From positions 123,337-187,336 of the forward strand of contig NZ_BLAF01000006.1 of NCBI RefSeq assembly GCF_009687885.1: DNA of 64,000 nt, given 5' to 3'. Shown piece by piece: positions 37,475-46,860 of this stretch (position 1 is the stretch's first letter; every line of letters begins with the position of its first letter). The notes below the pieces were generated by a model that did no database searches, was not told the DNA's origin, and worked only from the letters and a program-made list of their open reading frames with translations. The position numbers and the translations under genes were made by a program. Origin of the DNA: Acrocarpospora pleiomorpha. GTDB lineage: Bacteria; Actinomycetota; Actinomycetes; Streptosporangiales; Streptosporangiaceae.

Positions 37475-37957
37475 ATGACTTTCCAGGTCGGCGACACGGT
37501 CGTCTACCCCCATCACGGGGCTGCTCGGATCGAAGCCATCACCACTCGGACCATAAAGGGTGAGGAAAAGACCTACCTGGTGCTCAAGGTCGACAAGGGC
37601 GACCTTACCGTCCAGGTGCCAGCGGAAAACGCCGAACTTGTCGGTGTGCGCGATGTTGTCGGCCAGGAAGGCCTTGAGCGCGTCTTCGACGTGCTCCGCA
37701 TGCCGCACACCGAAGAACCAACCAACTGGTCCCGCCGCTACAAGGCCAACCTTGAGAAACTGGCGTCCGGTGACGTCAACAAGGTGGCCGAGGTCGTTCG
37801 TGACCTCTGGCGACGTGACCGGGAGCGCGGTCTCTCGGCGGGTGAGAAGCGGATGCTCGCCAAGGCTCGGCAGATTCTGGTCAGTGAGCTCGCTCTGGCG
37901 GAGAAGACCAACGAGGACAAGGCAGAAGCACTGCTCGACGAGGTGCTGAACTCCTGA
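37475..37957 (+). CDS. carD: CarD-family RNA polymerase-binding regulator
   Basis: This 160-aa protein has the N-terminal Tudor-like RNA polymerase interaction domain ([28 protein letters not shown]) and the helical DNA-binding domain with the conserved Trp ([35 protein letters not shown]). CarD stabilises open promoter complexes and is essential in mycobacteria. The 253-base upstream region has no gene and presumably holds its promoter. It is followed 17 bases later by ispF. Confidence 0.96.
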
Positions 37958-37974: not shown

Positions 37975-38457
37975 GTGGGCGTCGGAGTCGACGTCCACCC
38001 TTTTGCTACCGGCCGGGAGCTTCATCTGGCGGGCCTGCACTGGCCAGACCAAACCGGTCTGGCTGGGCATTCCGATGGTGACGCCGCCGCGCACGCGTGC
38101 TGCGACGCCTTACTTTCGGCCGCCGGTCTGGGTGACCTCGGCGGCCTGTTCGGCACCGCCGACCCGCGCTGGGCGGGCGCGTCCGGCACGACTCTGCTCG
38201 CAGAAACCGCCAGACGGGTACGCGAGGCGGGCTTCGAAATCGGTAACGTGGCTGTTCAGATCATTGGTAACCGGCCGAAGCTGGCGCCACGCCGTACCGA
38301 AGCGGAGAAGGTGCTGAGCGCGGCGATCGACGCGCCGGTGAGCGTGAGCGCGACCACCACCGACGGCCTGGGCCTTACCGGGCGCGGCGAAGGCGTCGCG
38401 GCGATGGCCACCGCGTTGGTCGTTGGCCCGTTCCAACGGAACACTTCGCCAACCTGA
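37975..38457 (+). CDS. ispF: 2-C-methyl-D-erythritol 2,4-cyclodiphosphate synthase
   Basis: This 160-aa MEP-pathway enzyme has the metal ligands in VGVDVHPF (Asp and His) and [19 protein letters not shown] (His), plus [11 protein letters not shown] and the terminal [19 protein letters not shown]. It makes the cyclic diphosphate intermediate of isoprenoid synthesis. The usual ispD gene between carD and ispF is missing here, and ispF begins directly with GTG 37975. A terminator follows. Confidence 0.95.
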
Positions 38458-38973: not shown

Positions 38974-39243
38974 ATGTCCATCGAGACCATTCTCGGCGCC
39001 ATCGTCATCGGTGCGGTCGTCGGCGCGCTCGGACGGCTGCTCCTGCCCGGTCGCCAGCCGATCGGCTGGATCCTGACCGTCGTCGTCGGCATCATCGCCG
39101 CCCTGATCGGTACGGCGATCGCCCAGGCCTTCAACGTCGCCACCACCCCCGGCATCGACTGGATCGAAATCGTCATGCAGGTCGTGCTGGCGGTGGTCGG
39201 TGTGGGTGCCGTCGCCGCGCTGCGTGGCCGAACGCGCGTATAG
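38974..39243 (+). CDS. GlsB/YeaQ/YmgE-family stress membrane protein, copy 2
   Basis: This 89-aa paralogue of the upstream gene has the same three-helix plan (ILGAIVIGAVVGALGRLLLPGRQ, GWILTVVVGIIAALIGTAIA, GIDWIEIVMQVVLAVVGVGAVAA) and LLLPGRQPIGW in place of LILPGRQNISW. The tandem pair arose by duplication. It converges on the fumarylacetoacetase-like gene, with only six bases between the stops. Confidence 0.9.
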   Translation: MSIETILGAIVIGAVVGALGRLLLPGRQPIGWILTVVVGIIAALIGTAIAQAFNVATTPGIDWIEIVMQVVLAVVGVGAVAALRGRTRV

Positions 39244-39249
39244 CAGGAT

Positions 39250-40425
39250 TCAGGGCGAGCGCACGGTTCCCGTGACCTCGCCAAGCCCGACTCCGAGGGC
39301 GGACTTCGCGGTGATCGTCACCGTGTCACCGTCCTCAAGGAAGACCCGCTCGGCATCCTTGGGAAGCCGCAGCGGGTTCTTCCCGTTCCAGGTCATCTCC
39401 AGGAGTGTGCCCGGATCCTCCGGGCCGGAAATCGGGCCTGATGTCAGCAGATCTCCCGTCCGTAGCTGGGCGCCGCTCACCGTCGTGTGGGTGAGCAGCT
39501 GCGGGCCGGTCCAGTAATGCAGGCCGTACGGCGGGCGGGAGATCACCTCGTCGTTCAGGCTCACTTCGAGCGCCAGATCCAGCCCCCAGGGTTCGGTCAC
39601 CGTGAGGTAGCCGGGCGGCGAGGGGTTTTGCGGCGGCTGGGTCGTCCTGGCGTGCTCCAAGGCGTCCAGCGGCACCACCCAGGGCGAGATCGTGGTCGCG
39701 AACGCGCGCCCGGTGAACGGCCCCATGTCCTGATATTCCCAGGCCAGCAGGTCCTGCGCCCGCCAGGTGTTCACCAGCACCACGCCGAACACGTGATCGC
39801 GGAAGGCCTTGGTCCCGACCGGATGGTTGGCCGGCACCCCGACGACATATCCAATCTCGGGGCCGATATCCAACTTCATCGACGGCCCCACATCCGCCTC
39901 ACCCCGCTGGCCGCTGGGCCGCACGATCGGCGTCCCCGACACGACGACACTCCCCGCCCGGCCATGATGCGCCACCGGCATCTGCCGCCAGTTCCGCCGG
40001 ACGGGATTCATCGTCGGCGGGCGGAACATGCGTCCCATATTCGTGGTGTGATCCAAGGATCCCTGGAAACATGCCAGGTCGGCCACCGCGAACGGCAGAT
40101 GGAGCAATATCTCGCTCATCGGTACGAGCGCGGGCATCACCGCCGGTCGATGTTGCTCATCACTCAGCAACTCGATCAGCCGTTCCCGAGTGGAACGCCA
40201 CGCCTCCGGCCCCGCCGCCAGAAACCAGTTCAGTGTCCCCGCCGCGAACCAAGCCGAATTGGGCAGTACGCCTGTCGCGCGCAGAAGGTCCAGATCTACC
40301 ACGTGATCGCCAATAGCGACCCCCACCCGAGGCAATTCCCCGCGCCTCGAAAACACCCCAAAGGGCAGGTTCCACCCAGGAAACCCGCTCCCACCAGGAA
40401 CCCAAACCCAGGACGTGATCGCCAT
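39250..40425 (-). CDS. Fumarylacetoacetase homologue with altered active site
   Basis: This 391-aa protein is colinear with fumarylacetoacetase (FAH), with SVVVSGTP, GPFTGRAFATTISPWVVPLDALE, YGLHYWTGPQLLTHTTVSGAQLRTGDLLTSGPISGP by pieces and TLLEMTWNG. Compared with human FAH, three of four metal ligands are changed: Asp126 to Cys119, Glu199 to Gly188, Asp233 to Thr220; only Glu201 (Glu190) remains. Tyr159, Arg237, Gln240 and Lys253 read His153, Gln224, Leu227 and Arg240. His133 and Glu364 are kept. It probably does not hydrolyse fumarylacetoacetate. No other tyrosine-degradation gene is near. Confidence 0.85.
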   Translation of the reverse strand: MAITSWVWVPGGSGFPGWNLPFGVFSRRGELPRVGVAIGDHVVDLDLLRATGVLPNSAWFAAGTLNWFLAAGPEAWRSTRERLIELLSDEQHRPAVMPALVPMSEILLHLPFAVADLACFQGSLDHTTNMGRMFRPPTMNPVRRNWRQMPVAHHGRAGSVVVSGTPIVRPSGQRGEADVGPSMKLDIGPEIGYVVGVPANHPVGTKAFRDHVFGVVLVNTWRAQDLLAWEYQDMGPFTGRAFATTISPWVVPLDALEHARTTQPPQNPSPPGYLTVTEPWGLDLALEVSLNDEVISRPPYGLHYWTGPQLLTHTTVSGAQLRTGDLLTSGPISGPEDPGTLLEMTWNGKNPLRLPKDAERVFLEDGDTVTITAKSALGVGLGEVTGTVRSP

Positions 40426-40676
40426 GCCTCCCCTGTTCCCCCGTTCGAGTCAGGAGGCGGCACGCCCGTGGTCATTTTTCTCAACGGTGCAGGTCAGCGA
40501 AGGGTTTAAGGGGTGGGCGGGCCGCCCGAGGTGGTGGGTAGTCGTCGGGTTGTGTGGAGAACCACGGTGATATGACCGTCGCTTGCTTCAGGCAGCTGCG
40601 GTGCTGGCGGGGGCGGGCGGAGCCCGAGGGGAACAAACGGGCTGGGTGGGTGGGAAACCCCCACGGCAATGCGATT

Positions 40677-42200
40677 TCAGGTGGGTGGGAGGGGTGTGCT
40701 TCGCATTCTTCCTGAAGGGGGGGCTGGGGGTTCTTCGCCGGACGGGAGGCGGCGGGCGGTGGTGTTCAGTTCTTCGGGGTCGGCGGCGTCGATGCCGTGC
40801 TCGGGGTCGGGGGAGTCGTGGAACTTGCGCATCGGCTGGGTGTCGATGCCTGACTCCTCGTTCTCGTCGAGTTCGCTCTGTGCCTGGCCGGAGTATCGTT
40901 CGGCGATCTGGGCGGCGGCTTGGTCGTAGCGACGGGAGAGAGCTTCGGATGCCGCGTCATCCGAGGCGACCAAGGGGACGATTGGCGGGATCGTCTGGGC
41001 GGAATTGTCGCCTTCGAGGGCCTCGGAGGTGTTGACCTTGTCTGATGCAGCGGGGCTCGGGGAGATCTCGTCCGTGGTTCCCGCCCAATAGGAGGCGTCC
41101 GGATCGTCCTGAGCCTGGGTTGACGCTTCGACGTTGTCAGCCCGGCTCGATGTCTCGATGCTCGGGGCTTGGTCAGACACATCCTCGGCCTGGTCTGACG
41201 TCTCGACGGTCTGTCCCGGCGTTTCCGACATGGGTTGGGTGTCGCTCTGGCCGGAATAGTCGGCGAAGGCCGGGTCGTCTGGAGTCGCCTCAGGGTCGTC
41301 GTCGAGTTCGGGGGTTGTACGCGATGGCTCGCCTGGGCGCGGATGGACGAGGACGTCGCCGACATTCGGGCGGATCAGGTCGCCCCAGCGGGTCGGGCGT
41401 TTCGGTCGTTCCGGGGCAGGGGCCGGTTCGTTGTCGCGGGGGAGCGGGGGCGCGAGTTCGGGTGGAGCGACGGTCTCGGTCACCGGGCTGACTGGGACTG
41501 GAGGCGTGTAGTCGGGTGGGGCCGCTGATTCGGCGGATTTATGGGGTTCCGGGAGCGCATGCCGTACCGACGGGAGAATGACCGGGTAGGGGTCGGTGGA
41601 CACGCCGGTCGGGTCGATGGTTCTGGGCGCGGCCGAAACAGGGCGGGAATGTTCCTCGTCGAAGGGAACGAGTTCTTCCACATCATTGTCGCCGTTCAGG
41701 TCGGCGCGCTTGCTCTGAGTGTGTTTGACCAGGACCAACAGGAGCCAAAGACCGATCACCAGCATGACCCACGGAACCAGCGCGACCGTGATCGCGGCCC
41801 CCCGTGGCTCGAAGGTGGCACCGGTAGCGGTGGCCACAGCGGCGGCGGCCGCGGCGGCCAGGAGCAGCGCGAGAATGAGACCCACCTGCAGGCGCACCAA
41901 TAATCGCCCCGACCGCAACAGCGGCACGCCGATCAGCGCGACGATCAGAAGCGCGTCGAACCCGGCCGGGTAGAGATACGCCAGACGCGGTTCGACCTGA
42001 CCTTGAACGGCGAGTCCACGCAGGTCGTCGAAGGAGAGTACGCAGGCGGCACCCGCGAGGATGGCAAGCGCGAGCCCGGCCAGGCCAATGGCCAGCCGGC
42101 GCAGCACCAGCGGAATTCCGGCCGGGCGGGAAGCCGGGGCGGTACGGATGGCTGACGGGCGGGAGGTCGGACCTGCCGCCGCGGGGGGAGTCGCGTCCAT
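40677..42200 (-). CDS. DUF2637-type membrane protein with long acidic tail
   Basis: This 507-aa protein has four membrane segments between about 30 and 155. ACVLSFDDLRGLAVQGQVEP and YLYPAGFDALLIVALIGVPLL match DUF2637, a family often found on Streptomyces plasmids (SpdB-like spread proteins). The remaining 340 residues are low complexity, rich in Pro, Glu, Asp, Ser and Thr, and likely disordered and cytoplasmic. Its presence among housekeeping genes could reflect an old integrated element. The 251 bases 40426-40676 contain nothing I can name. Confidence 0.7.
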   Translation of the reverse strand: MDATPPAAAGPTSRPSAIRTAPASRPAGIPLVLRRLAIGLAGLALAILAGAACVLSFDDLRGLAVQGQVEPRLAYLYPAGFDALLIVALIGVPLLRSGRLLVRLQVGLILALLLAAAAAAAVATATGATFEPRGAAITVALVPWVMLVIGLWLLLVLVKHTQSKRADLNGDNDVEELVPFDEEHSRPVSAAPRTIDPTGVSTDPYPVILPSVRHALPEPHKSAESAAPPDYTPPVPVSPVTETVAPPELAPPLPRDNEPAPAPERPKRPTRWGDLIRPNVGDVLVHPRPGEPSRTTPELDDDPEATPDDPAFADYSGQSDTQPMSETPGQTVETSDQAEDVSDQAPSIETSSRADNVEASTQAQDDPDASYWAGTTDEISPSPAASDKVNTSEALEGDNSAQTIPPIVPLVASDDAASEALSRRYDQAAAQIAERYSGQAQSELDENEESGIDTQPMRKFHDSPDPEHGIDAADPEELNTTARRLPSGEEPPAPPSGRMRSTPLPPT

Positions 42201-45213: not shown

Positions 45214-45228
45214 TGTCAGGCTTGACAA

Positions 45229-45301
45229 GCCGCCTTAGCTCAATCGGCAGAGCATCTGTCTTGTAAACAGAAGGTCTGGGGTTCGATTCCCCAAGGCGGC
45301 T
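45229..45301 (+). tRNA. tRNA-Thr (anticodon TGT)
   Basis: The 73-base sequence folds as a complete tRNA. Acceptor arms are GCCGCCT at 45229-45235 and AGGCGGC at 45294-45300 with discriminator T. The D-loop is AGCTCAATCGGCAGAGC. Anticodon stem TCTGT/ACAGA encloses CTTGTAA with anticodon TGT, and the T arm is GGGGTTCGATTCCCC. No CCA is encoded. Its 3' half is the probable phage attachment site. Confidence 0.97.
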
Positions 45302-45303
45302 CC
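45265..45303. other. Probable attL core in tRNA-Thr 3' half
   Basis: Integrases of this kind recombine within the anticodon or T arm to 3' end of a tRNA, restoring the gene. The integrase gene converges on this end and stops 13 bases beyond it. The matching attR copy lies outside the window, so the exact core length cannot be given. Confidence 0.6.
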
Positions 45304-45315
45304 CAGGTCAGGGCC

Positions 45316-46860
45316 CTATTCGGAGATCATCCGGATAGGGTCCGCTGCTTGTTTGGGAGGAAATTGGGAGATCGTTTTCTTGGCTCCCGACCGGAATGGT
45401 TCGAGCAGCCGGTCGAGAATCGGCACCCGTGAGCGCAGGGATATCCCAGCCCGCTGCGCGAGAGCCGTCTCCCAACGCGCCTGAAGCGCGCGCAGCAGCT
45501 CGGCCCGCATCGCCTCCGAGATGTGGGTGTAGACGCCGATCATCCCCCCCACGGCGTGGCCCATCCGGTTGGCCTGGAGGACCTCGGGGATGCCGTCCTC
45601 GGCCATCCATGTCTTGTGCCCGTGCCGCAGCCCGTGCGGCGTGAGGTCGGCCACCAAGGGCAGCCACGAGGAGACATGATGTTGGGCCGGATCGTAGGCC
45701 CACACTCCCTTCCCGCGGGGAACCACGAACTCCTGACCAACTGCGGCCATCGGCCACGCCGGCCGCGGCCGCCCGGGCCACAGCCCGTCTGCCACGTCGA
45801 CCAGCACCGGCCGGGCCGGTCGCCGGTCACCGTCACGCGGGTAGGCGCCTTCCACGGCAGGCGCCCACACCCGGCGCTGGTAGTTGCTCGCCCGCGGATG
45901 CCCGGTCACCAGGGTCCGCTTCTTGCCGACCCACCGCACGTGCCCCTCGCCGAGCCACACGTACGGCCGGCGGCCCTCGCACGGGAGCTCGCCGCCGTCG
46001 GCCGCCTCCCCGCCGGTGCACTCGCAGCGCTGGCCCGGGCGCTGCTGCACCCACCACGAGAACAAGGAGGACAGGAACGGCGGGATGTCCACCGTGCGGC
46101 GTGAGTCGTCCTTCGGTGGCAACCGGTAGAACCGGCCCTTGTCCTCGACGAGCTGCCAGTCGATCCGGACCGCCGACAACTTCAGGAAGCCGCGTTCCAG
46201 GCCGACGAGTTCGGCCCACCGCATCCCGGTCCAGCCCAGCGCAATCGGCGGTAGGAGGTCCTCCTCGCGGCCGGAGATGATCGCCCCCCGCTCGCCCAGT
46301 AGCAGCACCTGCAGCGGGCTGGCCCAGACCTTCTCGACGCCGCGACCGCCGACCGCCCGCTGACGGCCACGCTTGCGAGCCCTCAGCGCCGGGTTGACCT
46401 TGATGATCCCGTTGGTCTGCGCGTCACCCAAGATCGTGATCAGCCGGGCCCGGGCGCCCTTGGCCACGTTGACCGCGTAACCGACTGAGGTGATGTGCCG
46501 CTCCCACGAGTCGATCTCGACATTCACACCGGGCTGCTCGAACCAAGCCATCTTCCAATGCGCGAACTTCGGCAAGATGTGCTTCTTGATCGAATACGAG
46601 TAATTCCGGCGAGACTTGAGCGCCAGGTCCTGCGCCGGCCACCAGATGTCGACCCATTCCTGGAACGTCGCTTCCCCGACGGTGGGGTCCCGCCAGACGC
46701 CGCGGCGTCCGTCCACCTCCTGAGCCACTCCGAAGTTGTAGGCGGTGTCCTCATCGAAGAACGGCTGGCCGTTCTCGTCCCGGGACGCCTTTGTCCACGT
46801 CCCGTCCGGGCGCTTGAAGTGGACTCGAAACCGCTCACCGCGCGGTTCGGTGTAGACCAT
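45316..46860 (-). CDS. int: Tyrosine-type site-specific integrase
   Basis: This 514-aa recombinase has an N-terminal arm-binding and SAM-like core-binding region (FQEWVDIWWPAQDLALKSRRNYSYSIKKHILPKFAHW by pieces). Catalytic residues are Arg214 (TGMRWAEL), His409 and Arg412 (HGLRHGHKT), His435 (MGHAV) and nucleophile Tyr444 (VYTHIS). An insertion with CECTGGEAADGGELPCEG between about 279 and 296 carries three Cys and could bind zinc. It reads toward the tRNA, the usual arrangement for att-adjacent integrases. Confidence 0.95.
   Translation of the reverse strand: MVYTEPRGERFRVHFKRPDGTWTKASRDENGQPFFDEDTAYNFGVAQEVDGRRGVWRDPTVGEATFQEWVDIWWPAQDLALKSRRNYSYSIKKHILPKFAHWKMAWFEQPGVNVEIDSWERHITSVGYAVNVAKGARARLITILGDAQTNGIIKVNPALRARKRGRQRAVGGRGVEKVWASPLQVLLLGERGAIISGREEDLLPPIALGWTGMRWAELVGLERGFLKLSAVRIDWQLVEDKGRFYRLPPKDDSRRTVDIPPFLSSLFSWWVQQRPGQRCECTGGEAADGGELPCEGRRPYVWLGEGHVRWVGKKRTLVTGHPRASNYQRRVWAPAVEGAYPRDGDRRPARPVLVDVADGLWPGRPRPAWPMAAVGQEFVVPRGKGVWAYDPAQHHVSSWLPLVADLTPHGLRHGHKTWMAEDGIPEVLQANRMGHAVGGMIGVYTHISEAMRAELLRALQARWETALAQRAGISLRSRVPILDRLLEPFRSGAKKTISQFPPKQAADPIRMISE

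Follow-up and report, generated by a model that had tools for sequence, protein, structure and literature searches.

A fumarylacetoacetase homologue of Acrocarpospora that lacks three of four metal ligands is maintained by purifying selection

The roles of active-site residues in fumarylacetoacetase (FAH) are established from structures of the enzyme, and in human FAH, R237, Q240 and K253 belong to the oxyanion and leaving-group site. Its relative FAHD1 lacks the FAH N-terminal domain. We take FAHD1 K123 to be the counterpart of human K253 and FAHD1 R106 to be that of human R237, a residue that the branch described here has lost. Enzymes of the FAH superfamily bind a divalent cation through conserved carboxylates, FAHD1 is inactive after replacement of K123, and FAHD1 R106 hydrogen-bonds with the glutamate equivalent to human E201 (PMC7116474).

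We analyzed a 64,000-nt stretch of the Acrocarpospora pleiomorpha genome (the window), in which a preliminary description had noted an FAH homologue without its metal site. The gene, here called pseudo-FAH (P0001; 39250..40425, minus strand), starts with ATG, encodes 391 aa and was defined from its ORF, translation, Pfam and TIGR01266 matches and alignment. The protein matches FAA_hydrolase_N (PF09298, 1.9e-23) and FAA_hydrolase (PF01557, 3.6e-29); these N- and C-terminal FAH domains span its full length in Pfam and phmmer searches, and solved FAHs align to nearly all of it (phmmer; 9sqs at 2.6e-84, also 1hyo). By these matches, the ORF encodes a full-length FAH homologue. Its score against the TIGR01266 fumarylacetoacetase model (333 bits) is below the equivalog cut-off of 375.3, as are those of sister members from two other genera (354 and 315 bits), while three canonical FAHs exceed the cut-off with 419–469 bits. 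The gene is 99% identical to the A. macrocephala copy and 89–90% identical to the copies of A. phusangensis and A. corrugata. GC3 in the 5′ half of the window's gene is low (0.75, compared to 0.83–0.95 in most other members), a possible sign that this species' codon usage is drifting.

We compared active-site residues using a MAFFT alignment of the window protein, human FAH and about 60 bacterial FAHs, with human numbering. Three of the four metal ligands are replaced: D126 by C119 (codon 40069..40071), E199 by G188 (39862..39864) and D233 by T220 (39766..39768), all codons being on the minus strand. Only E201 is retained, as E190 (39856..39858, minus strand; all nine members described below), giving C, G, E and T at the four ligand positions. 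Elsewhere in the pocket, Y128 has become Q121, Y159 H153, T350 P331 and S235 R222 (39760..39762, minus strand; all nine members have Arg where canonical FAHs have Ser), and the oxyanion-site residues are also absent (R237 to Q224, Q240 to L227 and K253 to R240). The catalytic dyad H133–E364 is present as H126 (the catalytic base; 40048..40050, minus strand) and E343, and R142, T257 and G349 are kept as well, the first two as R135 and T244. These replacements at the ligands and at Tyr159, Arg237, Gln240 and Lys253 are those that had been read by hand from the single sequence. The claim of a lost metal site therefore stands for D126, E199 and D233; it does not extend to E201, which is retained alongside the dyad. 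A register shift of the ligands is ruled out, since flanking invariant residues fix the register in all members, so that the ligands are lost rather than displaced. An assembly error is likewise ruled out by the agreement of five Acrocarpospora species and four further genomes.

The altered pocket is sharply set apart from that of canonical FAHs. At human positions 126, 128, 133, 142, 159, 160, 199, 201, 233, 235, 237, 240, 244, 253, 257, 349, 350 and 364, the pocket string is DYHRYHEEDSRQYKTGTE in human FAH and CQHRHHGETRQLYRTGPE in the window, and the canonical FAHs examined carry DYHRYHEEDSRQYKTGTE with 0–2 changes, which makes the split from the altered branch bimodal. Among positions at least 95% conserved in canonical FAHs, the branch keeps only 3 of the 17 that lie in the pocket, compared to 81 of the 116 outside it (Fisher P = 5.7e-5). 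The loss of pocket residues exceeds chance.

We searched 345 genomes of the order with a profile, followed by residue inspection, and found nine members of the branch: five from Acrocarpospora, two from a second genus (G179 and G335; pocket strings RQHRQYSEGRWISQTGPE and RQHRQYSESRQISRTGPE) and two from a third (G246 and G276; LQHLQYSEARWMAQVGPD). They form a single clade with a long stem (support 100/100), which groups in turn with canonical FAHs from the same chromosomal slot (support 100/98 for the clade that unites them). In the alignment, the residues at the lost ligand positions differ among the three genera, and position 142 is Leu in one of them. Five replacements are fixed in all nine members (Y128Q, F204Y, S235R, A347T and T350P); H133 and E201 are kept in all nine, and E364 is kept or, in one genus, replaced by Asp. 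Between genera, pocket identity within the branch is 0.48, compared to 0.61 for the rest of the protein; the canonical FAHs of the slot show the reverse (0.97 and 0.71). Within Acrocarpospora, the pocket is invariant except at position 244. A class-wide sample of 394 genomes yielded no further member among the 30 best matches, and those outside the clade were all canonical; a search of viral contigs found no further relatives there.

We mapped the locus gene by gene in the window and eight other genomes. Pseudo-FAH lies between a gene for a DUF2637 membrane protein with a long C-terminal tail (40677..42200, minus strand; PF10935, 2.7e-8), located upstream on the same strand, and a convergent block of three genes on the plus strand. 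Six base pairs separate its stop codon from the first of these, which encodes a small Transgly_assoc-like membrane protein (38974..39243; a weak PF04226 match below cut-off), and the other two, IspF (YgbB; 37975..38457; PF02542) and a regulator that is presumably CarD (37475..37957), are conserved markers of the slot on the synteny map. In a sample of 120 genomes from the family, nearly all encode a homologue of the CarD-like protein, with 89–100% identity. The DUF2637 gene and pseudo-FAH are probably co-transcribed; the gap between them is 54–61 bp in six relatives and 251 bp in the window. The window's gap (40426-40676) could stem from an insertion or a shortened DUF2637 tail, and the gap in L061 is longer still.

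The same slot is occupied by a canonical FAH in related genera (g52, g67 and g37) and in a second family. In two such genomes (G100 and G087), a 290–310 aa protein of no known family precedes the slot FAH, and in G100 a distant homogentisate-dioxygenase-like (HGD-like) gene lies beside it (TIGR01015, 68 bits, far below the cut-off). In 20 other slots fetched from the family, one of which ended early at a contig end, there was no intact FAH, and two genomes (G009 and G047) hold short, decayed pieces of the gene in which residues typical of the altered branch, such as LLTS, can still be recognized. Given canonical FAHs in the same slot of relatives and decayed fragments elsewhere, pseudo-FAH is therefore an in-place descendant of a canonical, active FAH; a few species have kept it, and in others it is gone or decaying. 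Synteny and the tree rule out a transposed paralogue, and a DUF2637 protein acting as a dedicated partner is ruled out by the persistence of its gene in slots without FAH. The gene had also been said to stand alone, without tyrosine-degradation genes. Locally it does; nevertheless, the DUF2637 gene is a close neighbor in most relatives, and the slot holds a canonical FAH in related genera and, in one genome, an HGD-like gene too.

Elsewhere in the window, a tRNA-Thr(TGT) is directly followed by a convergent phage-type integrase gene (45228-46860), and many short ORFs with GC contents up to 75% extend from there to about 52 kb. The region resembles an integrative element that has the tRNA as its insertion site. 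In G179, another integrase gene (L057:2313-3524) lies beside the same RlmB locus.

We then quantified selection on the gene by pairwise Nei-Gojobori dN/dS, using only within-genus values because NG86 dS between genera is near saturation. dN/dS is 0.065–0.157 among the Acrocarpospora pseudo-FAHs and 0.22–0.27 overall within the other two genera (about 0.26 for G179 and G335, 0.22–0.23 for G246 and G276), and it falls within the range of neighboring genes. In neutral simulations with GC-biased mutation, dN/dS never fell below 0.73, and only 2–14% of ORFs were still open after 300 substitutions; in the three genera, all nine ORFs are intact. Purifying selection acts on the gene in Acrocarpospora as well as in the four genomes from the other two genera, and the protein is kept while the FAH pocket is not. 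These measurements support the earlier proposal of selection on the protein without FAH chemistry, as structural residues are retained and pocket residues are not. The proposal had left new chemistry as a second option; the pocket's variability between genera favors no conserved chemistry, and we return to this option below.

Besides pseudo-FAH, each of the nine host genomes encodes one or more FAHs whose active site is complete. In the window's genome, the 20 matches to PF01557 include four full-length FAH-type proteins, three of these with complete active sites. In this genome and in G179, one canonical FAH adjoins an HGD-like gene and a similar 300-aa protein of unknown family. We infer that a second canonical FAH made the slot copy redundant, and the order of events likewise; its presence elsewhere in every host genome could plausibly explain why the slot copy was released.

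The protein preceding canonical FAHs, of about 290–330 aa, recurs in several loci, often together with an HGD-like gene (L118:7145-8011, L119:9516-10451, L113:10490-11479 and L121:9499-10386). It had no Pfam match in the three cases tested and no NCBIfam match in two, and it is possibly an unrecognized member of actinobacterial homogentisate clusters. The HGD-like proteins near FAH score 48–68 bits, compared to an HmgA equivalog cut-off of 511 (L113:11452-12648, L121:10463-11632 and L118:4401-5594), suggesting a divergent type of HGD.

Taken together, we consider it rather likely that redundancy released pseudo-FAH from its original task and that it has been kept for a role other than that of an FAH, with binding or scaffolding the most likely one. 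The protein lacks residues required for the chemistry of its family, and its gene is maintained by purifying selection, both of which are features of a pseudoenzyme. In the proposed sequence of events, the slot copy of a canonical FAH would have become redundant to a second canonical FAH, in some genomes beside an HGD-like gene, and would then have lost three metal ligands and most of its substrate- and oxyanion-site residues. From what is known of the family, the protein would no longer cleave fumarylacetoacetate, because the superfamily binds its cation through the conserved carboxylates and FAHD1 does not tolerate the loss of K123. It would instead act without catalysis, as a dimer that binds or scaffolds; its partner could be the canonical FAH present in the same cell, or its remodeled pocket could bind another metabolite. 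More speculatively, the fixed R222 (human 235) may pair with the retained E190 (human E201) and fill the vacated metal site; as R106 of FAHD1 hydrogen-bonds with the equivalent glutamate, R222, two residues off, could take over the structural part. The fold appears to be preserved, judging from the sequence; AlphaFold2, run on only four near-identical sequences, gave a mean pLDDT of 36.

Three observations weigh against a binding or scaffold role. A purely non-catalytic protein need not retain H133, E364 (Asp in one genus) and E201; the five newly fixed residues lie near active-site motifs and may mark a new function there; and the pocket hardly varies within Acrocarpospora. The main rival reading is a metal-free enzyme acting on a different substrate, in which the His–Glu dyad is the general base and the arginine at human position 235 replaces the metal as electrophile. 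The dyad (Glu or Asp at 364) and E201 kept in all nine members, the five replacements fixed across three genera and the purifying selection would all fit such an enzyme. However, residues 126, 159, 199, 233, 237, 240 and 253 vary between genera, position 142 is Leu in one genus, and conservation is lower in the pocket than in the remainder of the protein, which is not the pattern expected of an active site in use. Moreover, beyond the general slot genes, no linked pathway gene is common to the nine loci. We therefore regard new chemistry as unlikely, although it keeps an appreciable chance. A related idea is that the divalent metal was traded for the fixed arginine paired with E201, the dyad serving in a reaction that needs no metal or in the sensing of a ligand. 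We consider this trade doubtful; if true, it would reveal a metal-independent lineage in a superfamily described as always metal-binding.

A third reading is that the gene is a slow relic, dead and en route to loss but not yet decayed. The decayed fragments of the branch in two genomes and the lack of an intact FAH in the 20 other family slots are what would be seen around such a gene, but a dN/dS of 0.065–0.157 in Acrocarpospora, when neutral simulations never fell below 0.73, together with ORFs intact in all five species and four other genomes when so few simulated ORFs stay open, makes a relic very unlikely. Least probable of all is a metal-dependent enzyme of the superfamily with shifted or different ligands, such as an Acrocarpospora site in which Cys119/His126/His153 would hold a softer metal. 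All five Acrocarpospora species do combine Cys at 126 with His at both 133 and 159, but in the other two genera position 126 is Arg or Leu and position 159 is Gln, so that no new site is shared, and the new acidic residues specific to the branch (E112 and E380) are outside the pocket set.

The branch offers a clear-cut setting in which to study how a pseudoenzyme arises from a metabolic enzyme that has become redundant. A single bacterial family shows different outcomes side by side: a site dropped in place, canonical orthologues in the same slot and decaying fragments. Such genes may be misnamed when they are called 'fumarylacetoacetase'. Our literature search, which covered few subscription journals, turned up no FAH-family pseudoenzyme.

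Compared to described FAHs (TIGR01266; PDB 1hyo, 1qcn, 4qku, 5ti1 and 9sqs), pseudo-FAH is alike in its full-length, two-domain homology, in H133, E201 and E364, in sharing the slot of the canonical FAH of related genera and in 84 of 133 family-conserved positions that are invariant in the branch. It differs in lacking three of four metal ligands, in the replacement of Y128, Y159, R237, Q240, K253 and T350 and in scoring below the equivalog cut-off. With FAHD1 and the short acylpyruvate hydrolases and decarboxylases of the superfamily it has the FAA_hydrolase domain family (PF01557) in common, but FAHD1 retains the Glu-Glu-Asp metal triad and the Arg, Gln and Lys residues (PMC7116474), which pseudo-FAH does not. 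It resembles pseudoenzymes in general, such as the RNase II pseudonucleases (PMC8097288), in that catalytic residues are lost and the gene is kept.
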